A DNA stretch of 64,000 bases from Bradyrhizobium sp. CB82 (GTDB lineage Bacteria; Pseudomonadota; Alphaproteobacteria; Rhizobiales; Xanthobacteraceae), in assembly GCF_029714405.1 (NCBI RefSeq), contig NZ_CP121650.1:1555001-1619000 (forward strand), read 5' to 3'. A model generated the notes under the pieces. The model had not been told where the DNA came from. It was given only the letters and a program-made list of their open reading frames with translations, and searched no databases. Both the position numbers and the translations under genes were made by a program. Positions within the stretch are counted from its first letter, which is position 1, and each line of letters starts with the position of its first letter. This document shows positions 23,165-39,461 of this stretch, one piece after another.

Positions 23165-24811
23165 TCAGCCGTGCCTCAGTTGGACGACGATTGCGTCCGC
23201 CGCTTTCAGCGCCAGCGCTGTCATGGTGAGCGTGCTGTTCGAAGCCGTCGCGCTGGGCATCGCGCCGCCACCAGGCAGGAATAGGTTGGCATGATCGTGT
23301 GCGCGGCAGTCAGGATCAACCACGGCCGTCGCCGGTTCGGTTCCCATGATGCAGCCGCCCATGATGTGGTCGCTGTTGAGAAACTCGGGGGACAGCTGGA
23401 ACTTGGTGGCGCCGAGTTCGGCTGCCAACCGCCGCAGTCGCGGCACCGTGTATTCCTTGGCGCTTTGGCGCACATAGTCGCCGACGTCGTAATAGATGTT
23501 CGGTTTGTTGATGCCGAGCCAATCCTTCTGAGTGGACAGCGTCAAACGATTATTTGCCGAGGGCAGGATCTCATGCTCCACGGTCAATCTTGCGGTACAG
23601 GCGGAAAGCCGCCGGATCTCCGCGTCCAGGGCCTTGCCCACCAAGCCTTTCTTCAGCGCCGCGGCTGCGCCGAGCGGACTACGAGCGAAATTCTCCATAC
23701 GGAACATCGCGCCGGCGTGGCGGCCGCGGAAGTCACCTTGTGTGGTGTTGAGGATGCTGCTGCTCTGGACCGGCCCGACGCCTGTCCAGAGGGGTTCCTC
23801 CAGCTCCAGCTCCGCCGTGAGCTTCGGCTGATCCATCATGTTGCGACCAACCTGATCGGAACTGTTCGCCACGCCGTTCGGGTTGCGTTCGTTCTTTGAC
23901 AGTAACAGCAGCTTTGGCGTTTCGATGCCATTGCAGGCAATCACGAAGAGGCGGCCGGTCACCCTGTGCGATTGCTTGTCCGGATCGAAGAAGTGAACCG
24001 CCTCGATCGCGTTCTTGTCGCCCGTCTCGATTCGATAGACGACGGCATTGGCTAAGATCTTACCGCCCTTTGCCTCGATCTTCGGCAAGGCCGTTGCCGC
24101 GTCATATTTGGCGGCGATCGGACATACCGGAAAACAGTTGTTGTTGCCGCAACAGGCCGGCCGGCCGTCATAGGAGACACCGCTGTTGCGGGCCTGAGGC
24201 GCCGGCAGGTTGATCATCCCGATTCTCGCGGCAGCTTCCGTGAACCGATGCTCACCAGGGCCGAAGGGAATCGGTCCCATGGGATAGGGTTTTGAGCGCT
24301 TCGCGTTCGTCGGCCATTGCAGCGCCGGGTCGGACGGACCGCTGACGCCGATCGCGTATTCCGCGCGTGTATAGTACGGCTCGATGATTTCGTGACCGAA
24401 GGGCCAGTCCCGGCCGACTCCATAAAGGCTCTTCAGCTCCATGTCTTCGGGCGTCAAGCGCCAACAAATTCCGGCCCAGTGCCAGGTCGCGCCGCCTGCG
24501 TAACGGACGTAGCCCTGGAGATAGGCGCGGGCATTTGGCCCTTCCAATTGGAGGTATTGCTCCTGCTCCCTGGGCGTGCGGGTTTCGAGATGCGGCGCCC
24601 ATGGCTTCGGTGGATAGGGTGCATTCCAGTGAAACAGCCGCAGGCTCGGCGGAAGATTCCGGAAGTTCTCGACGATCCGCCAGCGGTCAACGCGAGGCCC
24701 GGCTTCGAGCATCAGACCGGATAGCCCCGCGTCAAGAGCCTGTTGCGCGATCAGGCAACCGACTACGCCCGTTCCTACAACGACGACGTCTGCACTATGC
24801 TCGCTTGCCAT
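23165..24811 (-). CDS. GMC-family flavoprotein, large subunit of a membrane-bound sugar/alcohol dehydrogenase
   Basis: A 548-residue FAD enzyme resembling gluconate 2-dehydrogenase and fructose dehydrogenase large subunits. FAD motif VVVGTGVVGCLIA near residue 12, a GMC substrate domain with Cys-rich CCGNNNCFPVC, and C-terminal SDHIMGGCIMG with the active-site His region. ATG at 24811 is used because GAGGA precedes it; the frame is open to a TTG at 24847 with no better site. It should oxidise a polyol, sugar or alcohol in the periplasm with the small subunit and the tri-haem cytochrome. The substrate is unknown. Confidence 0.88.
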   Translation of the reverse strand: MASEHSADVVVVGTGVVGCLIAQQALDAGLSGLMLEAGPRVDRWRIVENFRNLPPSLRLFHWNAPYPPKPWAPHLETRTPREQEQYLQLEGPNARAYLQGYVRYAGGATWHWAGICWRLTPEDMELKSLYGVGRDWPFGHEIIEPYYTRAEYAIGVSGPSDPALQWPTNAKRSKPYPMGPIPFGPGEHRFTEAAARIGMINLPAPQARNSGVSYDGRPACCGNNNCFPVCPIAAKYDAATALPKIEAKGGKILANAVVYRIETGDKNAIEAVHFFDPDKQSHRVTGRLFVIACNGIETPKLLLLSKNERNPNGVANSSDQVGRNMMDQPKLTAELELEEPLWTGVGPVQSSSILNTTQGDFRGRHAGAMFRMENFARSPLGAAAALKKGLVGKALDAEIRRLSACTARLTVEHEILPSANNRLTLSTQKDWLGINKPNIYYDVGDYVRQSAKEYTVPRLRRLAAELGATKFQLSPEFLNSDHIMGGCIMGTEPATAVVDPDCRAHDHANLFLPGGGAMPSATASNSTLTMTALALKAADAIVVQLRHG

Positions 24812-24843
24812 CTGGACAATTCCTCTTTCGAGAGTACCCGCGT

Positions 24844-25434
24844 TCAAAATTCAGGCATGTTGCTCAGTGGCGGCGCCGTGGCCGTCCATCGGTTCGGCCC
24901 GGAAATGGCGTAGGAGGGAATGGTCATGACGTCACTCGTCGGCCCGTACATGAGCGCGTATTCGTAGGCGAACACCTCGGCGTTGGAAGCACTTGTGACG
25001 ACGCCGAGATACCAGGCAGAAATGATCGAAAGCGCGGTCTCCTTGAGCGGGCCATCCGGTATGTCGGCGAAGAAGTCCTCGACGATCCGTGCGTTTTTCC
25101 CTCGGGCGATAGAAAGGAGGCCACCAATTTGCTGCAACAGCGCCGGATTCAAAGCGACCATCGCAGCGCCCATGCGCCTACCTACCTCCGCATTCAGGCG
25201 ATGGGGAACCAGCAGCGACGAAATCTCCATGAACCGGGCCGCAGCTTCGTCCGACCACGAGGCCGGCGCTGCAACGGCCGGCAGCGTTGGCAGAGCGGCC
25301 AACGTACCGAATAGCAACCCGCCCACCAACACGTCGCGGCGAGCGAGATTGAAGGCCGTGGGACAGTCGTCGGGATAGGAGTCAAGCATATCCGTGCGTC
25401 TCGCTTTGGCGAGCGGGTCAATCTGGTCTGTCAT
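24844..25434 (-). CDS. small subunit (gluconate 2-dehydrogenase subunit 3 type) of the membrane-bound dehydrogenase
   Basis: A 196-residue protein with a twin-arginine-like leader (LARRDVLVGGLLFGTLAALP) and a helical domain (ARFMEISSLLVPHRL...) as in gluconate dehydrogenase subunit 3 and fructose dehydrogenase small subunit. The small subunit carries the Tat signal for the folded flavoprotein, which itself lacks a leader. ATG at 25434 follows GGGAG. Gene order small-large-cytochrome is the usual one for these complexes. Confidence 0.85.
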   Translation of the reverse strand: MTDQIDPLAKARRTDMLDSYPDDCPTAFNLARRDVLVGGLLFGTLAALPTLPAVAAPASWSDEAAARFMEISSLLVPHRLNAEVGRRMGAAMVALNPALLQQIGGLLSIARGKNARIVEDFFADIPDGPLKETALSIISAWYLGVVTSASNAEVFAYEYALMYGPTSDVMTIPSYAISGPNRWTATAPPLSNMPEF

Positions 25435-25535
25435 GTGATCTCTCCCAGGCAAGTCAAAATCGCAACGACATGGCCACAGCCGACGCGCCGCTTTCAGCGA
25501 GCGCGCAGGCCAGTTTCTACGGAATGAACGCTGGT

Positions 25536-26258
25536 CTAAGCGGTCTTCCGCGAGGCGGTGCTCACATGGGCGTTGCCCATCTCACCCAGCTTCGCCAGCA
25601 GAGTGTTCGCGGCTGGGCCCGACGAATGTGGATTTTGTCCTGTAATCAATTGGCCGTCGCTGACGACGTGAGGTGTCCAGTTCGCCTTCTTGGAGAAGAT
25701 GGCGCCCAGCTTCAGCATCTCGTCCTCGACGAGAAAGGGCACGATCTTGGTCAGCCCGACCTCCTCTTCCTCGCCGTTGGTGAAGCCCGTCACTTCCTTG
25801 CCGTGAACCAGAAGGCTGCCATCGGGGATCTTGACGTGACGCAGCGCGCCCGTCGAATGGCACACAATGCCGATCGGCTTGCCAGCCGCAAGAAACGACT
25901 CGATCAGCTTGATGGAATCCTGGTCTTCGGCGAGATCCCACATCGGGCCGTGCCCGCCGGGATAGAAAACGGTGTCGAAATCTTCCTGCTTGACGCTGTC
26001 CAGGCGAACGGTGTTGTCGAGCTGCGCTTCTGCATCCTCGTCGTTCTCGAACCGGAGCGTCAGCTCGGTCCGGAATTCAGGCTCGTTGCTCTTGGGGTCA
26101 AGCGGCGGACGGCCGCCCTTCGGGGATGCGAGCGTGACCTCGGCGCCGGAATCCTTGAAGACATAGTAGGGGGCCGCGAGCTCTTCGAGCCAGAAACCCG
26201 TTTTGCGCCCGGTGTTGCCCAACTGGTCGTGGGATGTGATGACCATCAAGACCTTCAT
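25536..26258 (-). CDS. DJ-1/PfpI family protein, type 1 glutamine amidotransferase domain (Hsp31-like)
   Basis: A 240-residue protein of the DJ-1/PfpI superfamily. The nucleophile Cys lies in GIVCHSTGAL near residue 136 with His next to it, and the acidic partner region YPGGHGPMWDL is present. Members act as glyoxalases/deglycases, chaperones or stress proteins. It is first in a likely operon with the membrane dehydrogenase genes (101-base gap to 25434) and has a phased TAAC box upstream at 26381-26405. A role in handling reactive carbonyls produced by the dehydrogenase is plausible but inferred. Confidence 0.87.
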   Translation of the reverse strand: MKVLMVITSHDQLGNTGRKTGFWLEELAAPYYVFKDSGAEVTLASPKGGRPPLDPKSNEPEFRTELTLRFENDEDAEAQLDNTVRLDSVKQEDFDTVFYPGGHGPMWDLAEDQDSIKLIESFLAAGKPIGIVCHSTGALRHVKIPDGSLLVHGKEVTGFTNGEEEEVGLTKIVPFLVEDEMLKLGAIFSKKANWTPHVVSDGQLITGQNPHSSGPAANTLLAKLGEMGNAHVSTASRKTA

Positions 26259-26380
26259 GACCGTCTCCCTTTGTCGCGCTTCTGTGAAGTCCCTCCGAGC
26301 ACGGCGATGCAGATCGCACGACCTCGCTGAGCCCGTGACCCTCTTCGTTGCTCGTCACGACACTCTGCGCGGAAGGCCGG

Positions 26381-26405
26381 CTGTTAGCACGTTATGCGTT
26401 GTTAG
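26381..26405 (-). promoter_or_regulatory. TAAC box 1 (candidate winged-helix regulator site)
   Basis: On the reverse strand three TAAC tetramers occur: first to second spaced 10 bases, second to third 8 bases. The form CTAACAACGCATAACGTGC matches the other boxes (CTAACAAnnCATAACnnGC). It lies 123 bases upstream of the DJ-1 gene start, in the promoter region of the redox operon. Confidence 0.5.
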
Positions 26406-26438
26406 ACGTTGCGAGCGGGGACGTGGCCGCGCGATCGC

Positions 26439-27146
26439 TTAGTCGAAGGCAGCGTCGAAGATCTCGACGTCAATGAGCGCCGGTTTGGCGATAACGGTTC
26501 CGTCGGGCCGCAGCATCTGTGAGCGCCGGAGTGTCGGAACCATGATGTCGGAAAACGTTTGGTGCGCCCACGAATAATCCGCAACTCTCGTTCCAAGCAG
26601 GTCGTGGTCCACACGCCGTTGCAAGGCGTTTTCGTCGAAGTAGAATATCTGCTCGGAGTTGTGGGTCACGATGTCCGACGGAAATCGCGCGCGGAGGCGA
26701 TGCCAGAGTGCTCCGTTCTCATGCCACGGCGGAAGTTCTTCGACCTGGACGTCAGGACGGGCAAGGAGAAATGGCGTGGTCAGGTAGCTCCAAATCGCGA
26801 AGCCGCAGAAGAAGACCAAATGCAATTCATCCGCGAGCGGGTGTATCGCGTGATTGGGGAATCGTAATTGTGGGTGACGCCAAGTCCGGAGGATTTCGCC
26901 GTCGATGCTTTCGATCGTGACGGAATCCGGTTGAAATGAAGCGCACCCCTGGCCGCCGGTCATGCCGGTAAATCGAACGGATTGGATTCGTGTCGATCCT
27001 TCCGCAATGACGTCCGTGAAATGACCGGCATGTCCGGCCTCGGTGAACAACATTCCGCCAAAGGAAAGATGAAGCGTAAACCGGCTCAACCTCATCCAGC
27101 GGGCCAAGCCCCCACTGGCATCAAGCGCGTCATCTAGAAGTGCCAT
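26439..27146 (-). CDS. uncharacterised protein, 235 residues
   Basis: A soluble 235-residue protein with no signal peptide, starting MALLDDALDASGGLARWMRL. Composition and codon use are normal for the region. Many aromatic residues in beta-like stretches (FTLHLSFGG, LRFPNHAIHP, YSWAHQTFSD) suggest a lipocalin- or LolA-like beta fold, but this is only an impression. I recognise no catalytic motif. Its own TAAC box lies 57 bases upstream (27203-27220), so it is probably controlled with the neighbouring redox genes. Confidence 0.75.
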   Translation of the reverse strand: MALLDDALDASGGLARWMRLSRFTLHLSFGGMLFTEAGHAGHFTDVIAEGSTRIQSVRFTGMTGGQGCASFQPDSVTIESIDGEILRTWRHPQLRFPNHAIHPLADELHLVFFCGFAIWSYLTTPFLLARPDVQVEELPPWHENGALWHRLRARFPSDIVTHNSEQIFYFDENALQRRVDHDLLGTRVADYSWAHQTFSDIMVPTLRRSQMLRPDGTVIAKPALIDVEIFDAAFD

Positions 27147-27202
27147 GTTTCGCCGGATCCGCCATAAGGTCTCTGCACCATGGCGAGGTATTGGCGGCTT
27201 GG

Positions 27203-27220
27203 CGTGTTAGAAGTTGTTAG
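27203..27220 (-). promoter_or_regulatory. TAAC box 2 (candidate winged-helix regulator site)
   Basis: Reverse-strand CTAACAACTTCTAACACG holds two TAAC tetramers exactly 10 bases apart. It is 57 bases upstream of the start of the 235-residue protein and downstream of the regulator gene that ends at 27266. Confidence 0.5.
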
Positions 27221-27265
27221 GATTTGCGAGAGGATGAGACCCGCGGTATCCCGCTGAAATTGCTT

Positions 27266-30106
27266 TCAATTCAGAGCAGCCAGAAAGTCCGTGGCAGAGA
27301 CGAGATCGCGTGTCGCCAGACCTTCGTGATAGCGCGCAACGATTGGTTCGATCAGGGCTCGAGTCTGGCCGGCGCGGCCGCTGACGCGCCAGAGCCGGCC
27401 AAGGCTGATCGCACCGCGCAGCTCCCAGCCGAGGGCGCACTGCTGCCGTGACAGGTCAAGCGATTTCTGAAGGAAGCGTTCTGCCTCGGCAGGGGACCCG
27501 GAACGTGCCAGAATGTCGCCCTTGATCCTGAGCATTTCCGGCATGTCGAAGGACTCGCCATGATCGCCGACATCGGCGATGGCATCGTCAATCAGGCGCA
27601 ACGCCTCCTCGAATTGATTTTGCAGCGCCATGCCCTCTGCCTGGGCAGTTGCAAACACGCTCGTCATGATCCGATGCCTGGTCGCGTGTAGCGTGGCCTG
27701 ACTGCGGCGGAGAAATTCCATGCCGCCAGCGACGTCGCCGCGGCGCAACAGCAGCTCTCCTTTTTGCCCGATGCCGACCGCGTAATAGGGGCCGAGAAAG
27801 TGCTTCCCCGCATGATCGATAAGTCTCTCGATCATGCTTTCCGCGCTGGTCCAATCGCCAACCCAGAGAAAGACATAGATCGTCCAGATCAAGGCAATGC
27901 CGAGCGTCAGCGGCTGCTCGAGCTGCTCGGCCTCACGTACCGTAAATCTCGCGGCCTCGATCGCCCGCTCCGGCTTGCCCGTGAGCCATAGCCCGCGGGC
28001 AAAGGCGACCAATGCGACGATGCGGTCGTCATAGCCGAGGTGACCAATATTCAGACGCTGCGAGCTTGGATTGTGCACCATCGCGCTTTCGCAGAGCGGG
28101 ACAGCCTTGTCCTGATGGCCAATCAGGTGATGCGCCACCCCCAGCATCCACTCGACGTTGAGCGTGCTGGTCGGGTCGTTCAGCTTGCGTGCAATCGGTT
28201 CACCTTTTTCGCCGGTTCCAAGCGCGCCGTGGAAGTCTCCGATGCGGGTCAGGTAGATGTGCAGCCCGCGCAGCAGCCACAATTGCCAGTGGAGATCTTC
28301 GAGCTCCTCCGCAAGGTGAAGACTTCGCGTAAAGGCCGCGCGCACGGCTTCGGTGTTACCCTGCGTAAACATCACGGAAATGCCAAGCGCCGTCTGCAAC
28401 TGCATTTCCTGACGGCGATCTATCGGCGTATTCTCAAGAGACGCGAGAGCCTGACTTGTCCAACGATAGCATTCCATCAGCAGCGAAAGCTCGAGAAAAA
28501 GCTGCCCAGCCGAGGCAGCCAGATCGATGCCGATCCTGCGGTCACCACGATCGGAGAAACTCCACTCCAGAGCGGCGCGCACGTTGGGTAGATGGTCTGC
28601 ATAGAGTAGGAAACCGCCGGCACTTTGAGGGCCCGCGGATTTGAGAGAAATGTCCTGCAGGAAGTCGCGAAAATAATCGGCGTGGGCGCGAGCGACCTGA
28701 TCTGCTTCTCCGCTTTCGGCCAGCTTCTCCGCAACGAAGGCCCGGGTCGTGTCGAGCAGACGATATCGCAGCCGGCGCTCTCCCGGCGCGGTCGCGATCA
28801 GCGACTTTGATAGCAGGTTGGAGATCGCCTCGACGGCTTCGGCTTCGCTAACGCCCTGAAATGATGCGACGGCAAGAGCAGCTTCCAGGGTGAATGGCCC
28901 GACGAACACCGACAATCTGCGAAGCGTCGTGCTTTCAGCTGAAGGCAGCAGGTCGTAGCTCCAGCCGAGCGCGGCGCTGAGCGTTTGATGCCGCGGGATC
29001 GCGGTACGCCGTCCTCGCCACAACAGGGAGAAGCGGCTGTCAAGGAGCGAAGCGGTCCCGGCAATGCCGTACGCATTGACCCGGCCCGCGGCAAGCTCGA
29101 TCGCAAGTGCGATACCATCCAGGCGCCGGCAGATTTCGGCGACCAGAGGCGCCTCTTCCTCGCCAAGCTGGAATTCGCTCAGGCTTTCCGCGATCCGTTC
29201 GACAAAAAGCTGGGCCGCTGGATAGGCAAGGATTTCGGAGGCGCTCAGTCCATCGCGTTGTGGTGGGCAATCTAGCGGGAACAGACGGAAGACCCGCTCG
29301 CCTTCGGTGCGAAAGGACTCGCGGCTGGTTGCAAGGATATGAAGGTCCGGCGCGTCCCGAGCAAGGCGTTCCGCCAGCGGCGCCAGCGTATCGAGCACAT
29401 GCTCGCAGCTGTCAAAGATCAGAAGCCTTTTGCAGCCCTGCAGGTATTTTAATAGGCCCGGTACGGGGTCATCGGAGCTGACGGGTAGTTCAAGCGCGGA
29501 AGCAATGGCGGCTGGGACAAGCTTCTCGTCCCTGAGAGCACCGAAATCGACGAAAGAAACCTGCTCCTCAAAGTCGGTCAGTTGGTGGTGCGCGACCGCA
29601 ATAGCGACCGAGGTCTTGCCAATGCCCCCAGGGCCGACAACGGTCACGAAGCGGTGCAGAGAGAGCTCGGCGCAAATCTTGTCGACGGCTTCTCCGCGAC
29701 CGATCATTCTCGCGAGCGGGGCGGGAAGAGCTCGAGCGGATGAGACCTTGCCGGGAGGCTGCGTCGCCGACGAGTCATGCGCGAGAGATGCGGCGAAGCA
29801 ATAGCCGCGCCCGGGAACATTGACGATGTAGCGGGCACCCGCAGCACCATCGCCGAGCGCCTTTCTCAAAGCGGTGATGTGGAAGCGAAGGCTGCCCTCG
29901 TCCACATTCACGTCGGCCCAGACGCGCCTAACCAATTCTCTCTTGTCGACGACTTCGCCGGGGTGCTCGGCGAGGGCGATGAGGATATCGAGCGCGCGGC
30001 CCCCGATGTGAAGCGGTGTGCCGTCCTTCTCCAACAACCGCGAGCTGGGAAGCAGCCGGAACGGTCCAAAGGAAATGGCCGAACCTTGATTGGTCTTGTC
30101 TGGCAC
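27266..30106 (-). CDS. winged-helix DNA-binding, STAND ATPase and TPR regulator (first paralogue)
   Basis: A 946-residue one-component regulator. An OmpR/CadC-type winged helix spans about residues 12-106 (FGPFRLLPSSRLLEKDG, RELVRRVWADVNVDEGSLRFHI). A STAND/AfsR-like ATPase follows: Walker A GPGGIGKTS at 158-166 and Walker B RLLIFDSCEH near 228. The C-terminal half is helical with TPR-like pairs. Such proteins hold the ATPase closed until a ligand or partner binds. The start is GTG at 30106 with a poor ribosome site, so it is uncertain. The protein at 36439-33587 is a full-length paralogue; 30543-31176 is a remnant of a third. Confidence 0.88.
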   Translation of the reverse strand: MPDKTNQGSAISFGPFRLLPSSRLLEKDGTPLHIGGRALDILIALAEHPGEVVDKRELVRRVWADVNVDEGSLRFHITALRKALGDGAAGARYIVNVPGRGYCFAASLAHDSSATQPPGKVSSARALPAPLARMIGRGEAVDKICAELSLHRFVTVVGPGGIGKTSVAIAVAHHQLTDFEEQVSFVDFGALRDEKLVPAAIASALELPVSSDDPVPGLLKYLQGCKRLLIFDSCEHVLDTLAPLAERLARDAPDLHILATSRESFRTEGERVFRLFPLDCPPQRDGLSASEILAYPAAQLFVERIAESLSEFQLGEEEAPLVAEICRRLDGIALAIELAAGRVNAYGIAGTASLLDSRFSLLWRGRRTAIPRHQTLSAALGWSYDLLPSAESTTLRRLSVFVGPFTLEAALAVASFQGVSEAEAVEAISNLLSKSLIATAPGERRLRYRLLDTTRAFVAEKLAESGEADQVARAHADYFRDFLQDISLKSAGPQSAGGFLLYADHLPNVRAALEWSFSDRGDRRIGIDLAASAGQLFLELSLLMECYRWTSQALASLENTPIDRRQEMQLQTALGISVMFTQGNTEAVRAAFTRSLHLAEELEDLHWQLWLLRGLHIYLTRIGDFHGALGTGEKGEPIARKLNDPTSTLNVEWMLGVAHHLIGHQDKAVPLCESAMVHNPSSQRLNIGHLGYDDRIVALVAFARGLWLTGKPERAIEAARFTVREAEQLEQPLTLGIALIWTIYVFLWVGDWTSAESMIERLIDHAGKHFLGPYYAVGIGQKGELLLRRGDVAGGMEFLRRSQATLHATRHRIMTSVFATAQAEGMALQNQFEEALRLIDDAIADVGDHGESFDMPEMLRIKGDILARSGSPAEAERFLQKSLDLSRQQCALGWELRGAISLGRLWRVSGRAGQTRALIEPIVARYHEGLATRDLVSATDFLAALN

Positions 30107-30542
30107 GCGCCATTGCCCCGCTGAGGGAAGTCCAGAGACGACTTGGTTTATCAGAACGAGGGTTTGAGTAAACTGGCCCGGCTGGCGAATATCTGTGCTA
30201 CGTCTCGAAACGAGCCGAAAAGCTGGCCTGAGTCGTCAGATTTGGCTTAAAAGATAAGATCTTGGACGAAATTTGGGACGGTTCGGACGCGATGCGATCC
30301 GTCAGGCGCAAGACCGTCAATCGCTTCGCGGACAACTATGACAATTGTGACGCCGGCGGCCGCTGCCGGGTAGGCCGGATAACGAAGTCTGGCTGTCGGG
30401 CATCGAGCATTGGGTCTGCACCTGCTTTGGTGGGATTCTCGGGGCTTTTGATCGAGGGGTGACCCGCCCTCAAAGGGTCTTGGGTGATCTGTGGCGAGCT
30501 TCGATAAGACCAACCCGTTTTCACGATCGGTTACCTCCCCCG
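30107..30542. other. no gene recognised between divergent regulator genes
   Basis: About 430 bases between the regulator start (30106) and the remnant paralogue. No TAAC box, no repeat and no convincing frame are visible. It should contain the promoter of the reverse-strand regulator. Confidence 0.4.
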
Positions 30543-31176
30543 GATGCATTAGTTTTCGGGCCATTCCGCGTTGTTCCGAATGAACGCCTGCTAGAGCGCG
30601 ATGGTCAGTCCGTTCCCGTTGGCAGCCGCGCGTTCGATCTTCTCTGTCTGTTGATCCATCGGGCTGGCGAAGTTGTCGGCAAAGCCGACCTCCGTGGATC
30701 AGGGAGTCGAATTGCTGCGGCCTGCATTACCCCGCATGCTCGCCGACCGCTTGGAGCTCTACAGTGGGGCAGCGACCATCGCGCTGGTCGAGGGGATGGC
30801 TGCGCAGGGTTTGCCTGCGGAGGCGCTCTCCACGATCGAGGCGCGCATCGACGCTGTGGCCGCCCAGGGCGACAGCTGGGAGATGCCGGAGCTCTTGCGC
30901 GTGCGCAGTGAGCTCCGCGCCGGCTGCGGTGCCAGCTTAGGCGCAGAGCAGGATATTGGCGCAGCAATGGAGCTGGCCGAGCGGCAGTCGGCGCTTTCCT
31001 GGAGATTGCGCGCGGCCATCAGCTATGTTCGCCTCGCCGGCTCTGGTCCTACCTCGGCCCAGGCTCTCTTTGAGTTGAGCCATACGTTGGCTCGCTTTAC
31101 GGAGGGCTCCGACACGGCAGATCTCCGCGCCGCGCGCCGACTTCTTGAGATCTCTCCTGAGGCCATGCCTCGGTGA
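30543..31176 (+). pseudogene. remnant of a third winged-helix/ATPase/TPR regulator
   Basis: The 5' part (30543 to about 30695) encodes the start of the winged helix: DALVFGPFRVVPNERLLERDG, SRAFDLLCLLIHRAGEVVGKADL. At about 30695 it joins, in a different frame, a C-terminal TPR segment (DSWEMPELLRVRSELRAG ... FTEGSDTADLRAARRLLEIS) that aligns with the end of the 950-residue paralogue (FTEGFDTADLKAAERLLEQLS). The second half of the winged helix, the whole ATPase and most TPRs, some 700 residues, are deleted. It faces opposite to the two intact paralogues. Confidence 0.82.
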
Positions 31177-32241
31177 TCTCGTCACTACGGAGTGGTCGAA
31201 TTTCGCACATGTTAAAGCGGTGAGAGGGGGTTCCGCTGATGGGATCACGCATTGCAGCGTCGACCGTCAGGTTGAAGTTGCTTCCATTTGGATCCGTTGG
31301 ATCTGAACCCGCGATCCCAAGTTCAGCGCAAGCTTGCCACCAGCCATGTTGGCCAACGACGACACGGTCGTCCAACGTATCGTTAAAGCGCGCCTTGGCG
31401 CGCATTGCGCCGCTCGAGGTTCTGACCTCGACCCAATCTCCGTGCCGAATCTTCCTGGCAGCTGCCGTGGTCGGGTGCAGTTCGATTTCGGGGTAGGGTA
31501 AGCGCTTGCGCAGCAGTGGTAACGCGCGATGCTGGCTTTGGCAGAACAAGCTCGGCTTTGCGCATGTCAGAACCAGCGGGAACACATCTGCAGGATGTGG
31601 CGTTCCAAAGACGGGAGTTTCGATATCAGGCAGCGCCGGATAGCCCTTGTCAGCGAACGTTTCCGACCAGAACTCGACTTTTCGCGTCGGGGTCGGAAAA
31701 CCGCGCGCGATGCCGCGCTCGTCCGGTATCTTGTATTTATAGTGAGTCGTTGACAGCGATTTTCGCTGTCCGGCCGGTTCGGCTCTGAGTTGCTCAAGAG
31801 AGATGCCACTTAAGGCAAGCTGTTCTCGATAGGCCGCATCGACGTCACCATCCCAGAACTTCATCTCGAGCCCCAGCCGTTTGGCCAAGCTGAAGACAAT
31901 GTCGGTATCGGGCAAGGCCTCTCCGGGCGGCGGCACGATTTTTGATCGGAGTTGGACGTAAGACTGTGCGTCTTCACTGATTTCAAATCCGATCTTGAGA
32001 GCTTCGCGTTCAAAGCAAGACGCGACGGGAATCACGATATCGGCAAGCGCGGCTGTCGGATTCATGAACAGGTCCGCATGTGCATAAAAATCCAGCGACG
32101 AAAGTGCCGCGCGGCCGCGAACAGGATCAGCCTGGGCAAGCAGTAGATTCGCGCCGAATCCAATCAGCGTGCGCACCGGATAGGGATCACCTTCGAGAAC
32201 CGCCCGATAGAAGTCATGGGTGGGTCGACACGTTGTCCCAG
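31097..32241 (-). pseudogene. C-terminal part of a frameshifted molybdopterin oxidoreductase
   Basis: This frame continues the enzyme begun at 33590, from THDFYRAVLEGD onward. It includes the remaining catalytic region (IGFGANLLLAQADP, DLFMNPTAALADIVIPVASCFE) and the C-terminal molybdopterin dinucleotide-binding domain (ELHPTTAAARKIRHGDWVEVRT, GQHGWWQACAELG, HRFNMCEIRP). After the natural-looking end at about 31200 the frame runs on antisense over the regulator remnant, so the original stop may have been lost at a rearrangement. Open-frame sequence upstream of the frameshift point is not part of the enzyme. Confidence 0.75.
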
Positions 32242-33590
32242 CGTGCTGGTCCGAGCGGACGTTCGGCGACGCCGATGGCCGGCGCAAGCTGCTGAGCGAG
32301 ATCCTCTCCGGCGATCGGCGCTGTCGGGATCGACGGAAGAAGACCGTTGCCGCCGGGCGCATCGAAACTGCCGGTCAGGGCATAGAGCATGGCAATCGCC
32401 CGCGCGGTTTCCGTCGTGTTCGCGTGATGCTCGTGTCCGCTCCAGGCATAATATGAGACCGGCCGCGATTCCCAGATCGTGCGTGCCGCCTCTGTCAATT
32501 GCGCCGCAGGAATCCAGCACGTCCTTGCGATCGTCTCAGGTGAGTAGTGTCTGCACAGATTGGCGTAGTGGTCGAAGACCGGCCGGCAACTGACGGTCCC
32601 GTCGACCGTTTCAACGGTGTATTCGCCTCTTAAGGACAGATGACCAGGCGAGGCATCGTACTGCCCCGTGGTCGGATCGTAGCGGACAATGGATTTCGAC
32701 AACATATCCAAGGCAACAAGCGACCCACGACCGGCGTCGGGAAATACGTCTTCGGCTTTCAGCAGCCTGTTGGTGTCGGAGCGCACCAGCAGCGGCCCGT
32801 TGGTCCATGTGCGCACGAACTCCTGATCATACCATCCGCGCTCGATCATGATGTTGGCGAGACCCAATGCAAGCGCGCCGTCAGCTCCTGGTCGCACCCG
32901 CAGCCAGACATCTGCCTTGTTGGCGAGGCCGACATTGCGGGGATCGATCACGACAAGCTTCATGCCCTGCTTGAGACCATCCACCGCAGCCGTCGCGTGC
33001 GTGATACGTGAGAACGAAGGATTGTAGCCCCACAGGATCAGACATCCGGTTTTGGCGATCTCCGGCATCGCGCCGCCCGCGCTTCCTGTCGCAACGCTGC
33101 CGACCCCGAAGACATATCGCGTGGCGAAGCCGCGGCGCCAGCCGCACAAGTCGAGTGCCCAGACCAGATTCGGGGTGCCAAAGGCGTTCATCAGCCTGCG
33201 AACGAAAGGCGCAGAATCCGCGATGGCCGTTGTCGACGGCGACGATAGGCTGAAAGCGACTGCTTCAGGGCCATATTGTGCAGCAGTGCGCCGCATTGCG
33301 GACGCGATCTGATCGAGCGCGATGTCCCAGGACGTCTCTTCCCACCCGGGATCAGGATCGCCTTTCGGCCGGGTACGGCGAAGCGGCCGTGTCAGCCGAT
33401 CCCTGTGATAGACCAGTTCGGGGGCCGCCCGACCCTTGGCGCAAATGGCCGCCCCCGTCGGATGCGAGGGATCGGGATCCAGGCGAATGAACCGCCCGTC
33501 GGCCACGGTCGCTATCGTACCGCAACGCGCGATGCACAATCCGCAGTATCCTTTGATATGGTCGACCCTTGGCGCGCAGGAGGCCGTCAT
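32214..33590 (-). pseudogene. N-terminal part of a frameshifted molybdopterin oxidoreductase
   Basis: The 458 residues hold the 4Fe-4S motif (CGLCIARC, fourth Cys in GAAICAKG) and molybdopterin domains (CLILWGYNPSFSR, VVIDPRN, WIPAAQLTEAARTI, WSGHEHHANTTETARAIAMLYALTG) of the formate dehydrogenase/nitrate reductase/thiosulfate reductase family. There is no signal peptide, so it is cytosolic. The frame ends early at DNVSTHP because GGGT is duplicated in tandem (32218-32225, forward strand); removing one copy restores VSTHDFYRAV. Together with the downstream part the enzyme would be about 790 residues. Its ATG overlaps the stop of the regulator gene (ATGA at 33590-33587). Confidence 0.8.
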
Positions 33591-36439
33591 GACAGTTGCT
33601 CCAGCAGTCGTTCAGCTGCTTTGAGGTCGGCAGTGTCAAACCCCTCTGTAAACTGACCATACGTCCGCCCGACAACGTCCTTCGCAGGTTGGCGAAGGCC
33701 CTTTGCAGCCAGGAGCGCTGCAAGGTCGATCGCCGTGCGCAATTCCCAGCCGAGCGCGCCTTGACTGCGACTGAGCTCCAGCGATTGCATGAGACACGCT
33801 TCGGCTTCCTCAAGGTGAGAAGGGACCATCGCGCGGAGCAGTCCCCCCTTCATACGTAGCAACTCCGGCATGTAACAGGTATCGCCCTTTGTGCTGACTT
33901 GCAGGATCGTGTCGGTCAGGAGTGCCATCGCGTCATCGCGCTGTCCGTTGGCGATCAGGCCTTGCGTGAGGCAGATGTTGAACTCGGTCGTGATCAGCTC
34001 GTAGCGGACGGCATGAATCTCTGCCAGGGACGCGCGAAGGTCCGCGATGGCGTTCTGGCCCTGGCGAATGGCCAGCTGCGCCTTTCTTGCGCGCCCGACC
34101 GCAGTCAGCGAGCCAAGGGAATAGGATTCGGAGATCGCGATCGAGGCGTCGATATACTCTTGGGCACTCCGAAAATCCCCGGTCCACAGGAAGATCGACG
34201 CGGCCCAGGCAAGCAGAACGGTGACCGACGCCGGATGATCCATTCGCTTCGCGCCATCGATGAATTCCCGGGCGCGCTCAACAGCCTGGGTCGGATGTCC
34301 CTGCATCCAAAGCGTCCTCGCGAGCGCAATGCCGGCCCGGAAATGGCGATCATGGACCAGATAGATCGTGTCGCTCTGCTGTGACGGCGACCAATCTGCG
34401 AACAGCGCCTCGAGCTCGCCGCGCGCGCCGCGGAGGTCTCCCATCATGAGAAGGGAGCGTCCGAGGATGGAATGGGCCAACGCAAGGGCTGCGGGGTCGT
34501 CGACATTGGCGGCGAGCGCTCGGCAGCGTTTTGCATACGACAACGCGACATTGAAGTCGCCACTGCGGAAGTGGAACATGTGGAGCATGCCGAGCAGGCC
34601 GGCTTCGTTGGCCACATCACGCTCCGCTTCGGCCAATGCCAGACTGCGGTCCAATGCCCCTCGCGCCTGCGCGTTTTCTCCATAAAGCAGCATCGACGAG
34701 ATCCCAAGGCCTGCCTGCAGGTGCATCTGCTCGGATTTGCTGCAGACTTGATCGTCGAGAACAGCCAGAGCGCGTTGCGACCAATGATGACATTCAGGAA
34801 GCAGCGACATCGCCAGGAGGACGGGTGCCGCGGCCGCGGCAAGGCCGATACCGGTCGGCAGATCACCGTTCGCTCCAAAGCACCATTCCAGGGCAGTGCG
34901 GACGTTGCTGACGCCGGCGAAATAGGGCGCGCGCTCCGTGCCGGACATCAGGGTGGACCATTCGGAGGCAGCTTGCGCGAGCCATTGCCGGTGGTAACGC
35001 GCATGACGGATGGCCAGGGAGGCTGTTTCGATGTCGTCGGCCTCGAGTTCAAGCGCGTAGGCCCGCGTCGTATCAAGCAGACGATAACGCATGACGGCAT
35101 CGAGGGAACGCGTGGCGACCATGGACTTGGCAACCAGGCTGTCGATGGCCTCAAAAACTTCCGCCTGGTCGAGACCGTTGCCGGTGGCGACCGCAAGCGC
35201 AGCGTCGAGGGTGAAATTTCCGACAAAAATGGCCAATCTGCGCAGCACGATGCGCTCTGTTTCGCGCAGCAGGCTATAGCTCCAGTCGAGCGTCGCCTGG
35301 AGCGTTTTTTGCCGGGGCGGAGCGGTGCGTGGACCTGCCCATAATTGGGCGAGTCGCTGGTCGAGCAGGGCGGCTATCTCGCTCAAACCATAGACCTCGA
35401 CGCGGCGCGCCGCCAATTCGATGGCGAGCGCGACCCCATCGAGCTTCCGGCAGATGTCGGCTACAATTGCGGCTTCAGCGTCGTTCAGTTTCAAGTTGGC
35501 GCCGCTTGCCACGGCGCGTTCGACGAACAATTGCGTAGCGGGGAATGTTCGTGCGACCTCGGCGGAAAGTTTGCTGCCCTCGGGGGCATAGGCGAGCGGC
35601 TCCAGCCGATAGACATGTTCTCCGTCCGCCTGCAGCGTTTCTCGGCTCGTCGCTAGAATGTGAACTTGAGGAGCGGTCCTGAAGATCGCCACGGCCAGGG
35701 TTGCAACGGCGTCGACCAGATGTTCGCATGTATCGAGCACAAGCAGAAGGCGCTTGTTTCTGAGAAAGGCGATCAGGCCGGAGATTGCGTCCGCGCTCTG
35801 GACGGAGAGGCCCAGCATCGACGCGACGCCAGTTGTCACGAGGCGAGGATCGCTCACCATGCTCAGGTCGACGAAGAGAACTGCGCCGTCGAAGGTCGTG
35901 TGCAGTTGGTGCGCGATCGCCACGGCAACGGTGGTCTTACCGACGCCGCCTGATCCGACGATCGTGACAAACCGGTAGGCATTGAGCCGCAGCGACAGCT
36001 TCTCAAGATCTTCCTCGCGGTCGATCATAGCGCCGAGCCGGCTCGGCAGATTGTAGTGATGAAAACCTGGGGAGGGGGCAACGAGAGACTGGGCTGTAAT
36101 GCCCGAGCGTGAAGTCGCGGCAACAAAACTATAGCCCCGTCCTGATAATGTGGAGATATACCTGGCGCCATCCTTTCCGTCCCCGAGCGCCTTGCGCAGA
36201 CCGGCGACGTGGAAGCGCAAGGCGCCTTCCTCGACATTGAGCCCGGGCCACACCTCGGCGATCAGGTCGTTCTTGCTGACCACTTCGTTCGGACGGGACA
36301 GCAGCGTCACAAGAATGTCGTAGGCTCGGGCGCTGAGCTCGACGCGGGCGCCTTCCTTGGTCAGCATTCTCTCGCCGGGAACCAGGAGGAAGGGGCCAAA
36401 CGAGACCGTTTCATTGCTTTGCGCAGGCGGCGCTGCCAT
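33587..36439 (-). CDS. winged-helix DNA-binding, STAND ATPase and TPR regulator (second paralogue)
   Basis: A 950-residue regulator. The OmpR/CadC-type winged helix lies at about 12-108 (FGPFLLVPGERMLTKEG, NDLIAEVWPGLNVEEGALRFHV), Walker A GSGGVGKTT at 162-170, and Walker B RLLLVLDTCEH near 233. A DxxLDWSYSLL-type helical domain and a long TPR region follow. It is closely similar throughout to the protein at 30106-27266. Its stop overlaps the molybdopterin oxidoreductase start by ATGA, so regulator and enzyme were co-translated. An ordered array of four TAAC-type repeats lies 145 bases upstream (36584-36617), consistent with autoregulation. Confidence 0.9.
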   Translation of the reverse strand: MAAPPAQSNETVSFGPFLLVPGERMLTKEGARVELSARAYDILVTLLSRPNEVVSKNDLIAEVWPGLNVEEGALRFHVAGLRKALGDGKDGARYISTLSGRGYSFVAATSRSGITAQSLVAPSPGFHHYNLPSRLGAMIDREEDLEKLSLRLNAYRFVTIVGSGGVGKTTVAVAIAHQLHTTFDGAVLFVDLSMVSDPRLVTTGVASMLGLSVQSADAISGLIAFLRNKRLLLVLDTCEHLVDAVATLAVAIFRTAPQVHILATSRETLQADGEHVYRLEPLAYAPEGSKLSAEVARTFPATQLFVERAVASGANLKLNDAEAAIVADICRKLDGVALAIELAARRVEVYGLSEIAALLDQRLAQLWAGPRTAPPRQKTLQATLDWSYSLLRETERIVLRRLAIFVGNFTLDAALAVATGNGLDQAEVFEAIDSLVAKSMVATRSLDAVMRYRLLDTTRAYALELEADDIETASLAIRHARYHRQWLAQAASEWSTLMSGTERAPYFAGVSNVRTALEWCFGANGDLPTGIGLAAAAAPVLLAMSLLPECHHWSQRALAVLDDQVCSKSEQMHLQAGLGISSMLLYGENAQARGALDRSLALAEAERDVANEAGLLGMLHMFHFRSGDFNVALSYAKRCRALAANVDDPAALALAHSILGRSLLMMGDLRGARGELEALFADWSPSQQSDTIYLVHDRHFRAGIALARTLWMQGHPTQAVERAREFIDGAKRMDHPASVTVLLAWAASIFLWTGDFRSAQEYIDASIAISESYSLGSLTAVGRARKAQLAIRQGQNAIADLRASLAEIHAVRYELITTEFNICLTQGLIANGQRDDAMALLTDTILQVSTKGDTCYMPELLRMKGGLLRAMVPSHLEEAEACLMQSLELSRSQGALGWELRTAIDLAALLAAKGLRQPAKDVVGRTYGQFTEGFDTADLKAAERLLEQLS

Positions 36440-36583
36440 GGCGTGCTTCTTCTTTAGCGCTTTGAATTAGCTTCAATATTTGCGCCGGTGCCGGCGCTGG
36501 CATCAGAGTAGATCGTAACGATGCAGGTCAGTAGTTCGTAGGCTTTGTCCGGCTGAGTGAGACGGTTGCCCTGCTCGCATTGC

Positions 36584-36617
36584 TAACGGGCTCTAACAAG
36601 CCATAACAAGCACTAAT
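36584..36617. promoter_or_regulatory. TAAC box 3: four tetramers at exact 10-bp spacing
   Basis: TAAC at 36584, 36594 and 36604 and TAAT at 36614, each exactly one helical turn apart, with CTAACAAGCCATAACAAGC in the centre. It lies between the regulator (start 36439) and the forward operon (start 37250). Tandem direct repeats with 10-bp phasing are the expected target of OmpR/CadC-like winged-helix proteins. Confidence 0.55.
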
Positions 36618-36692
36618 CCTTCGTTTGAGCGAAGCTAATCACGCGATTTTGCTCGGGATCCTGGGATTATCCCTCAAACCAAGGAGCTTGCC

Positions 36693-36882
36693 ATGACGGT
36701 CGCAGAGATGCGTAACCAAGCGCACGGCGAGTTGTCGAAACCTCATACTATTGACCTCAAGCTTGAGGTCGTTGTCATTCCCGTGTCAGACACTGACCGC
36801 GCAAGCGGCTGACGACAATTGGCCGGACTGGTACGCCGATTTCATGGTTCGCGAGCAAGCCGGCGAACCATTGCCATCTTGA
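36693..36882 (+). pseudogene. VOC/glyoxalase family protein, internally deleted
   Basis: ATG at 36693 follows AAGGAG and encodes MTVAEMRNQAHGELS, then LKLEVVVIPVSDTDRA, the standard start of a VOC (glyoxalase/dioxygenase superfamily) protein. At about 36808 it jumps in another frame to NWPDWYADFMVREQAGEP, the typical end of the same family, stopping at 36882. About 80-100 central residues with the metal ligands are missing. From 36883 to 37126 I see no gene. Confidence 0.7.
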
Positions 36883-37126
36883 TCTGCGAGCCCGCATCGC
36901 TTCCTGACATGCACGCTGATGCGGCGCCGCTTGCGAAGTGACGTCGACACGAAAGCTCATCTCGCAGATCGTGAGACCGCTCAGGCGGGATGCGTCGTCG
37001 CGCATGATACGCATTGCACTTGCGATGGCATCGAGCCTGCACCTTTCGCGATCGTTGCCGAGATGCCGTCGCGATGAATGCTCGCCCGCCTAACGCCGCA
37101 ATGTCCCACACGCGACTCGCAACGGC

Positions 37127-37150
37127 TAACGACGCCTAACAATCCATAAC
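37127..37150. promoter_or_regulatory. TAAC box 4 (candidate winged-helix regulator site)
   Basis: TAAC at 37127, 37137 and 37147, exactly 10 bases apart, with CTAACAATCCATAACGAGC matching box 3 at 16 of 19 positions. It lies 100 bases upstream of the epoxide hydrolase start and is the obvious candidate operator of the nine-gene forward cluster. Confidence 0.55.
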
Positions 37151-37249
37151 GAGCAAACGCGCGGCGCCTCCGTCACAGTGTGCGTACAAACACGGGCCTG
37201 TTGAGTCCGAACGCGGCCCTCCGATCGAACGAAGCAAGGGAGAACGGCA

Positions 37250-38563
37250 ATGAACGCACGATCGAGCGTCGACCTCATCAACCCGGACCGACGTCAAGTC
37301 CTGAACGCAGCCGCGATGGGCGTTGTTGCCGCAGGTATGGCCAGTCTTTTGCCCATTCATCGAGCGGCTGGAAGCCCGAGCCACGCAATTCGGCCATTCC
37401 ATGTCAACATTCCCGACGAAGACCTTATCGACTTGCGCCAGCGGCTTGCGGCGACCCGTTGGCCAGACAGCGAGATCGTCCCCGACCAGTCCCAGGGCGT
37501 GAAGCTCGCGACGATGCAGCAGCTCGTACGCTACTGGCAGACTGACTACGACTGGCGAGGGGTGGAGACGCGGTTGAACGCACTACAGCAGTTCGTCACA
37601 GAGATCGACGGTGTCGACATCCATTTCATCCACGCTCCATCCAAACACGATAATGCACTGCCCATGATCGTAACGCACGGCTGGCCCGGCTCGATCATCG
37701 AACAGCTCAAGATCGTCGATCGCCTGACGAACCCAACGGCTTACGGCGCGAGCGCGTCTGACGCGTTCGATCTCGTCATCCCATCGATCCCCGGCTATGG
37801 CTTCTCGGGCAAGCCGACGACGATTGGCTGGGACCCGGTGCGGATCGCGCGCGCCTGGATCGTGCTGATGAAGCGCCTCGGTTACAGCCGCTTCGTGGCG
37901 CAGGGCGGTGACTGGGGCAATGCGGTCACAGAGCAGATGGCGCTGCAAGCGCCACCGGAGCTGATCGGCATCCACACCAACATGCCTGCCGCCGTGCCCG
38001 CCGACATTGCTAAGGCATTGCAGCCGGACGGCGCGGTGCCCGCCGGTCTCTCCGTCGAGGAGCAGAACGCCTACAACCAGCTCGATGATTTCTACAAGCA
38101 TGGTCTCGGCTATGCCCTCGAGATGGCGAACCGGCCGCAGACGCTCTATGGCATTGTGGATTCGCCGGCTGGCCTTGCGTCCTGGATCCTCGATCACGAC
38201 GCGCGCAGCAGCGGACTGATCGCGCGGGTATTCGACGGCAAGAGCGAAGGCCTGACCCGCGACGACATCCTCGACAACATCACGCTTTACTGGCTGACCA
38301 ATACGGCGATTTCGTCGGCACGGCTGTACTGGGAAAACAAGCTCGCTTTCTTTGAACCGAAGCACGTTTCCATCCCGGTGGCCGTCAGCGTCTTCCCCGA
38401 CGAGATCTATGCCGCCCCGCGCAGCTGGACCGAGCGGGCCTATCCCAAGCTGATCCACTACAACCGGCTCGAGAAGGGCGGCCATTTTGCGGCCTGGGAA
38501 CAGCCCGAGCTGTTCTGTGCGGAAATGCGCACCGCGTTCCGTACTTTGCGACGATCGACCTGA
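37250..38563 (+). CDS. epoxide hydrolase (EHN domain + alpha/beta hydrolase), exported
   Basis: A 437-residue microsomal-type epoxide hydrolase. A twin-arginine-like leader (DRRQVLNAAAMGVVAAGMASLL) suggests export. The EHN N-terminal domain (about 47-155: FHVNIPDEDLIDLRQRLAATRWPD) precedes the alpha/beta hydrolase core with oxyanion HGWPGS, nucleophile Asp in QGGDWGN and catalytic His in GGHFAAWEQP. It adds water to epoxides to give diols. It heads the forward cluster behind TAAC box 4. ATG at 37250 follows AAGGGAG. Confidence 0.9.
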   Translation: MNARSSVDLINPDRRQVLNAAAMGVVAAGMASLLPIHRAAGSPSHAIRPFHVNIPDEDLIDLRQRLAATRWPDSEIVPDQSQGVKLATMQQLVRYWQTDYDWRGVETRLNALQQFVTEIDGVDIHFIHAPSKHDNALPMIVTHGWPGSIIEQLKIVDRLTNPTAYGASASDAFDLVIPSIPGYGFSGKPTTIGWDPVRIARAWIVLMKRLGYSRFVAQGGDWGNAVTEQMALQAPPELIGIHTNMPAAVPADIAKALQPDGAVPAGLSVEEQNAYNQLDDFYKHGLGYALEMANRPQTLYGIVDSPAGLASWILDHDARSSGLIARVFDGKSEGLTRDDILDNITLYWLTNTAISSARLYWENKLAFFEPKHVSIPVAVSVFPDEIYAAPRSWTERAYPKLIHYNRLEKGGHFAAWEQPELFCAEMRTAFRTLRRST

Positions 38564-38612
38564 GGGATCGCGCGGCCTTCCTCTCCAACCCCACCAACCA
38601 GGAGTGCATATC

Positions 38613-39461
38613 ATGAATCGTCCCGAACGCAGCTTTGCGAGTGATCAGATCCGGCTCGAGCGTCGCCTGCCGACATATTGGCGCGTCACTTTCGACATGC
38701 CGCCGGTGAACATCTTCGGTCCGAAGCAGCTTCCGTTACTCAATGACGTGATCACCGCGATCGAGAACGATCCGGAGCTCAAGGTCGTGGTGTTCGATAG
38801 TGCCGTCGAGGGGTTTTTCATCACGCACTACGACTTCCTCGCGCCGCTCGAAGATTCCCTGAGCATCCCGCCGGGACCGACTGGACTTCAGGCACTTCCC
38901 GACATGCTCGTGCGTCTCAGCCGCGCGTCAGCGGTCTCCATTGCTTCGATTCGCGGCCGCGCGACCGGGGTCGGCAGTGAACTAGCGCTCGCGAGCGACA
39001 TGCGCTTCGCGAGCCGCGAAAAGGCCATCCTGTCGCAATGGGAGGTGGGCGCCGGCCTGGTACCCGGTGGCGGCCCGATGGCGCGATTGCCGCGTCTGAT
39101 GGGCCGGGGACGCGCGCTCGAAGTGCTGCTCGGCGCCGACGATGTCCGCGGCGATCTCGCCGAGCGCTACGGCTACGTCAATCGGTCGCTGCCAGACGCC
39201 GAGCTCGATGGTTTCGTCGAGGCGCTCGCGATGCGCATCGCATCGTTCGACAAAGAAGCTATTGCGGAGACCAAGCGTCTCGTCGACGTCGCAAGTCTGC
39301 CTGCCGACCTGGAGATTCGGCCCGAATGGGACGCCTTTCTGGCTTCCCTCGGCCGTCCCGCCAGTCAGAACAGGATCAAGGCGCTGATGGCGCGGGGTTT
39401 CCATCGGGCCGGCGACGTCGAAAACCGGCTCGGCTTCCACGTCGGCCAACTCGGCGACTGA
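38613..39461 (+). CDS. enoyl-CoA hydratase/isomerase family protein
   Basis: A 282-residue crotonase-fold protein. The oxyanion-hole segment IRGRATGVGSELALASDMRFAS replaces the usual HxxxxGGGxxLA loop, and QWEVGAGLVPGGG carries the Glu region. An N-terminal arm (NRPERSFASDQIRLER) precedes the fold. It probably acts on an acyl-CoA or a related carbonyl compound, but the variant loop makes the reaction uncertain. ATG at 38613 follows AGGAG. It lies 49 bases after the epoxide hydrolase gene. Confidence 0.85.
   Translation: MNRPERSFASDQIRLERRLPTYWRVTFDMPPVNIFGPKQLPLLNDVITAIENDPELKVVVFDSAVEGFFITHYDFLAPLEDSLSIPPGPTGLQALPDMLVRLSRASAVSIASIRGRATGVGSELALASDMRFASREKAILSQWEVGAGLVPGGGPMARLPRLMGRGRALEVLLGADDVRGDLAERYGYVNRSLPDAELDGFVEALAMRIASFDKEAIAETKRLVDVASLPADLEIRPEWDAFLASLGRPASQNRIKALMARGFHRAGDVENRLGFHVGQLGD

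Follow-up and report, generated by a model that had tools for sequence, protein, structure and literature searches.

Tandem TAAC repeats one helical turn apart mark putative operators of winged helix-STAND NTPase-TPR regulators in Proteobacteria

STAND regulators of large size that carry TPR sensors are common among bacteria, and most of them have no known targets. In the described case of AfsR, a large SARP of Streptomyces coelicolor, an OmpR-type winged helix, a STAND/NOD NTPase and a TPR part are joined in one chain; in the available excerpts of the source, a BTA domain is also part of the protein, which binds two direct repeats of 11 bp at −40 to −19 that overlap a poor −35 (PMC10936776). 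PSPPH_2539 of Pseudomonas syringae has been described as having a winged helix, a COG3903 ATPase and a TPR part by fold recognition (PMC3574062, 2012), and the excerpts of that article give no operator for it. PhoB and OmpR bind head-to-tail, and a direct-repeat element of ToxR is cited in the same article, also available as excerpts (PMC6733452).

We analysed a window of 64 kb (the whole stretch of DNA under study) in which two regulators, reg1 and reg2, are found together with four boxes of TAAC repeats (Table 1). An initial annotation had located these four boxes, and all of them are present at the places it gave. We consider it very likely, from comparisons at the sequence level, that the boxes are activator operators, the binders most likely being the nearby winged helix-STAND NTPase-TPR regulators.

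Table 1. Positions of the boxes, their predicted −10 hexamers, the genes behind them and the two regulators in the window.
Feature	Position	Strand	Remark
Box A, three TAAC units, 10-bp phase	36584..36607	+	TAAC at 36584/36594/36604
Box A predicted −10, GAAGCT	36631..36636	+	from box-to-10 geometry
VOC/glyoxalase gene remnant	36693..36893	+	3' of box A
Box B, three TAAC units, 10-bp phase	37127..37150	+	TAAC at 37127/37137/37147
Box B predicted −10, CACAGT	37174..37179	+	from box-to-10 geometry
Epoxide hydrolase (EHN, alpha/beta hydrolase)	37250..38563	+	behind box B
Enoyl-CoA hydratase ORF	38487..39461	+	after epoxide hydrolase
Box C, two TAAC units, 10-bp phase	27206..27219	−	
Box C predicted −10, CATGGT	27177..27182	−	from box-to-10 geometry
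235-aa protein	26439..27146	−	behind box C
Box D, two TAAC units, 10-bp phase	26391..26404	−	
Box D predicted −10, CAGAGT	26362..26367	−	from box-to-10 geometry
DJ-1/PfpI protein	25536..26258	−	gene nearest box D
FAD-SLDH subunit	24844..25452	−	box D row
GMC oxidoreductase	23165..24847	−	box D row
Cytochrome c	21684..23162	−	box D row
MOSC/YiiM-ferredoxin reductase fusion	19924..21699	−	end of box D row
reg1: OmpR-type winged helix, STAND-type NTPase, TPR	27266..30106	−	
reg2: OmpR-type winged helix, NB-ARC NTPase, TPR	33587..36439	−	

In Pfam scans, reg1 had PF00486 and TPR matches above the cut-off and a STAND NTPase match below it, and reg2 had PF00486 and NB-ARC matches above the cut-off and a TPR match below it; a P-loop was present in both. 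The winged helix ends at 104-105 in these proteins and the NTPase matches start at about 134-146. The two regulators are approximately 42% identical, and two more full-length paralogues are encoded on the 0.9-Mb contig of the same genome; no box was found near these two plasmid-borne paralogues. An alignment of the four paralogues led to 79 named loci; these belong to Alpha-, Beta- and Gammaproteobacteria, apart from a few in other genomes or in genomes that were not placed. In many genomes (e.g. G669:C12:143033-147304) a second, shorter regulator-like protein, an open frame of about 490-560 aa whose match to the long regulator is confined to its first half, stands tail-to-tail with the full-length regulator. 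Between reg1 and reg2 the window also contains the remnant of a third regulator (30525-31146, plus strand), of which only N- and C-terminal pieces are left, and a Mo-oxidoreductase split over two frames (31181-33590; pieces 94% and 95% identical), which is intact in relative G018 (811 aa).

Some details of the boxes differ from what had been annotated. The TAAT at 36614 keeps the phase, but we rejected it as a fourth unit of box A: it is the TAAC at 36604 with which the −10 is in register, and the TAAT is missing from the box of a relative with a 95% identical regulator. For the box annotated at 26381-26405 (box D), the pair of TAAC units at 10 bp was confirmed, but the third TAAC lies 8 bases from the second instead of 10. 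Box A had been assigned to a regulator/Mo-oxidoreductase pair, which we do not find supported, in view of strand, −10 geometry and the VOC gene of a relative: the box is oriented away from reg2 and towards the VOC remnant, and in G018, whose reg2 is 95% identical to that of the window, this box is followed by an intact VOC gene (229 aa, L168:8053-8742) of which only pieces remain in the window. Box A may also have an effect on the divergent regulator reg2. The 235-aa protein has no Pfam or NCBIfam match, and its homologues in relatives stand behind the same box. Behind box D, a row of genes on a single strand runs from the DJ-1/PfpI protein through FAD-SLDH, GMC oxidoreductase and cytochrome c to the MOSC/YiiM-ferredoxin reductase.

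We found TAAC-N6-TAAC 6 times in the window, compared to a shuffle mean of 0.06. In the 10.14-Mb genome it occurred 28 times, with 6 of these within this 11-kb cluster, and 151 times in a reversed-letter control, while TAAC-N6-TAAC-N6-TAA occurred 4 times (3 in the cluster, two of which overlap in one box) and 2 times in the reversed control. When the −10 was included, as TAACAA-N4-TAAC-N24-A-N3-T, there were 4 perfect matches genome-wide and these were exactly boxes A-D. Allowing one mismatch gave 8 sites versus 8 in the reversed control, and as this is the control frequency only the perfect sites stand out. A random density of the motif across the genome, which the initial annotation had named as a finding that would speak against it, was tested for and not found. 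A fifth box, with one mismatch and the −10 geometry, lies before a 271-aa ORF without a Pfam match (L217:5753; genome C1:6633752). A further genomic triple at C1:9113960 was taken as unrelated: it is without the −10 geometry, and two other genomes also carry its 24-mer, at a distance from the regulators listed.

The same repeat emerged when all 4-mers were scanned de novo, in threefold repetition and with periods from 6 to 24, near the 79 regulator loci: TAAC at period 10 ranked first, narrowly above TCGA at period 21. At spacing 10 we counted 82 TAAC pairs, which were distributed over 40 of the 79 loci (shuffle mean 3.35, maximum 8), compared to 0-7 at each other spacing from 6 to 18. The full geometry was found 58 times in 36 of the 79 loci (shuffle mean 0.25). 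It should be noted that 39 of the 79 named loci had no TAAC pair at 10 bp.

Exact triple boxes numbered 93 in 64 of 146 same-genus genomes, with reversed controls totalling approximately 40. At least 52 of the 93 were within 5 kb, and at least 57 within 20 kb, of one of the 152 regulators listed (two of them from this genome), where the area expectation is 0.16% and 0.55%, respectively. The remaining 36 boxes lie beyond 20 kb of any listed regulator and some of these are other conserved sequences. One conserved triple, TAACCTTCCATAACGCTGATTAAC, recurs in the genus (G022, G025, G031, G102, G138 and others) away from listed regulators, and in G138 a near-identical site is found beside regulators (L198:803).

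The strict box TAACAANNNNTAACNNGC had 212 matches in the same genus versus 50 reversed. Among the matches listed, 75 of the 103 same-genus genomes that have a regulator (a match at E ≤ 1e−150) contained it and the other 28 did not, versus 2 of the 43 genomes without a regulator. In a second genus, Pseudomonas as judged from tree placement, TTAACAANNNTTAACTC occurred 92 times in 64 of 149 genomes (5 in the reversed control), and 81 of the 92 sites were within 5 kb of the orthologue. All 63 genomes of this set with a close full-length orthologue (E = 0) contained it versus 1 of 86 others, and it was found in none of the 9 genomes among these 86 which had only weaker regulator matches (E ≤ 1e−100); as the genomes of each genus are related, such counts are not independent trials. 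The possibility that the boxes are chance repeats is practically nil: it is excluded by the genome-wide and cross-genus counts, in which we found no support for it.

To describe the promoters, we took the last TAAC as the common reference point for 118 boxes, of which 103 have a gene and 15 were chosen from 25 that have none, and reduced the set to 71 boxes with < 60% identity downstream. The pattern nAnnnT started at +27 after the last TAAC in 40 of the 71 and at +28 in 14, the mean per offset being 3.1. The consensus was (C/T)TAACAA-N4-TAAC-NNGC, with NNGC mostly GRGC. If the −10 hexamer is set at −12, the last TAAC falls at −39 and NNGC coincides with the −35, where no TTGACA-like hexamer was found in the four window promoters. 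The fixed offset to the −10 means that the box covers the −35 region, which is class-II activator geometry. An ORF start within −60 to 300 nt was found on the same strand for 86 of 107 merged boxes and on the opposite strand for 47 of 107, and 8 of the 107 were inside a called ORF. Among boxes A-D and homologues, many are situated inside an imperfect inverted flank GCTCG ... CGAGC, with GCTCGCAAC 5' of the first TAAC.

Two other readings bear on this geometry. Many ECF sigma factors have an AAC core at −35, and the boxes could belong to promoters read by an alternative sigma factor whose −35 contains AAC, rather than being regulator sites; however, the 27-28 nt from TAAC to the −10 are about 4 nt too long for the usual spacing of such promoters, the −10 resembles that of sigma-70 promoters and this reading does not account for the repetition at 10 bp, which makes it highly improbable. 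A protein over the −35 could also block RNA polymerase, and the STAND-regulator operators might serve repression or a dual role instead of class-II activation. We give this only a small probability, considering that the four window promoters are without a TTGACA-like hexamer at the −35 place and that contact with RNA polymerase would impose just such a fixed offset between box and −10.

Of the 128 merged boxes in 100 loci, 103 had a same-strand gene start within −60 to 400 nt. When these 103 first genes were clustered and the representatives named by Pfam or NCBIfam, the most common were epoxide hydrolases (n = 22), a group with AraC-type regulators (n = 22) and homologues of the 235-aa protein (n = 19), followed by VOC proteins (n = 7), alpha/beta hydrolases (n = 7), WrbA-like flavoproteins (n = 6) and DJ-1 proteins (n = 3). 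Unlinked boxes with the same geometry were also found: in the Pseudomonas set before OprD-type porins (five loci, one of them Pfam-scanned) and AraC-like genes, and in Bradyrhizobium before MOSC-reductases and second epoxide hydrolases. The one full-length MOSC-reductase of this genome is in the row behind box D, while in 10 fetched relatives homologues which are 69-73% identical each stand behind a box away from listed regulators; these loci were fetched for having a box and the 10 are not a frequency. The same applies to loci L167-L186 and L256-L275, which were fetched since most of them hold a box, loci such as L167 and L175 being chosen by position, and shares among them are not frequencies. 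The boxed enzymes suggest the handling of reactive small molecules as a theme, and our guess is that epoxides, dicarbonyls and quinones are the context.

The prominence of AraC-type genes among the commonest first genes raises the question of whether AraC/XylS-type regulators bind the boxes and the STAND regulators are mere neighbours. AraC proteins can bind direct repeats near −35, and 26 of 40 box-bearing loci had an AraC-like match. However, none of the six AraC queries matched in the other 14 of the 40, which include the window, and 12 loci had an AraC match but no box. We regard AraC-type binders as improbable, also because the half-site itself was found to change along with a clade of STAND regulators.

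This change was found among 41 loci fetched around regulators, of which seven overlap others, leaving 34 distinct. No TAAC box was present in the scanned flanks of 36 of the 41, and in 23 of these 36 the top 5-mer/period combinations were CTCAC, TCACA and CACAA at period 10. TCACA-N5-TCACA was found in 27 of the 41 loci (22 of the 34 distinct). In a quick tree of 161 regulators, whose box labels also admit TAAT-containing pairs, the 22 TCACA carriers formed one clade (SH-aLRT 100) beside the clade holding reg2, and being close relatives they were counted as one event. The TAAC association was spread across this tree with 24 changes versus a shuffled mean of 51.7. The half-site change, which tracks a clade of STAND regulators, links the operator more closely with the regulator than with a neighbouring gene. 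The −10 count at TCACA boxes was left with 3 rows.

Beside the sister-clade regulators at L066-L087 (e.g. L066:1373), 10-bp-phased CTCACAA repeats are accompanied by an AAACGGG unit one turn further. A possible recognition-helix code was considered, as the TCACA-associated regulators depart from TAAC-associated ones at positions 34, 53, 64 and 68; other TAAC-associated rows vary at these positions and we therefore claim no such code.

The initial annotation was partly supported by these results. That tandem direct repeats mark a regulon, and that the neighbouring regulators with an OmpR-type winged helix are its likely binders, is supported by genome-wide uniqueness, co-occurrence in two genera, linkage, promoter geometry and the clade-specific half-site change, but the regulon is not "private": boxes and regulators are present in Alpha-, Beta- and Gammaproteobacteria, boxes are also found at unlinked genes, and the reading is wider than had been stated, of a family-wide operator. 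The motif, its uniqueness, geometry and co-occurrence, and the recurrence of its targets come directly from computation, and from them we infer binding, activation, an inducer, transcription starts and the assignment of regulators to boxes.

In the activator reading, the operator would consist of two units of 10 bp each, CTAACAAnnn and nTAACNNGC (NNGC being mostly GRGC), to which some boxes add a third TAAC unit on the upstream side; the last TAAC would start at about −39 and NNGC would replace the −35 hexamer, 27-28 nt ahead of the −10. The TPR/STAND part may bind an inducer and nucleotide, upon which the regulator would oligomerise as an inducer-gated module, with its winged helices arranged head-to-tail beside sigma region 4, each on a repeat one helical turn from the next. 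It would thereby recruit RNA polymerase, in a class-II manner, to promoters without a good −35. Putative targets in the window are the epoxide hydrolase, the formerly intact VOC glyoxalase, the 235-aa protein and the DJ-1/membrane dehydrogenase/MOSC-reductase row, and elsewhere WrbA-like flavoproteins, alpha/beta hydrolases, AraC regulators and OprD porins. It is also likely, if with less confidence than for the operators themselves, that the uncharacterised proteobacterial winged helix-STAND-TPR family has one ancestral operator, in which paralogous clades swap TAACA for TCACA and keep phase and geometry. If true, regulons, including unlinked targets, would be readable from genome sequence; with spacing and promoter offset fixed, sequence could be used to predict the targets, and hence likely inducers, for Bradyrhizobium, Pseudomonas and their relatives.

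We found no published account of a phased-TAAC operator, in a search which covered few subscription papers and is weak evidence of novelty. Among known systems, OmpR/PhoB response regulators have a winged helix of the same fold family as reg1 and reg2 but, unlike them, a receiver domain, for which neither reg1 nor reg2 has a Pfam match; in its place these have the STAND NTPase and TPR. No Pfam match was found in either to the C-terminal LuxR-type helix-turn-helix of MalT/LuxR-type STAND activators. ToxR/CadC and HilA share the N-terminal OmpR-type winged helix, and the CadC and HilA/EilA models of NCBIfam gave matches here that stayed below the cut-off, whereas reg1 and reg2 differ from them in the large NTPase-TPR part and in the half-site. 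PSPPH_2539 has, as far as the excerpts describe it, a predicted domain order like that of reg1 and reg2, the likeness being one of description. With AfsR, in its excerpted description, the two regulators have the order of winged helix (PF00486) and STAND NTPase/TPR in common, although neither has a Pfam match to the BTA domain and the AfsR NCBIfam model matched reg2 only, at 18.3 bits against a cut-off of 1430. The AfsR repeats described there are of 11 bp and those of the window of 10 bp, with units from about −49 and −39 as placed from the predicted −10, which puts the window repeats about one helical turn further upstream. The family would then be a proteobacterial counterpart of AfsR, with natural half-site switching between paralogues.
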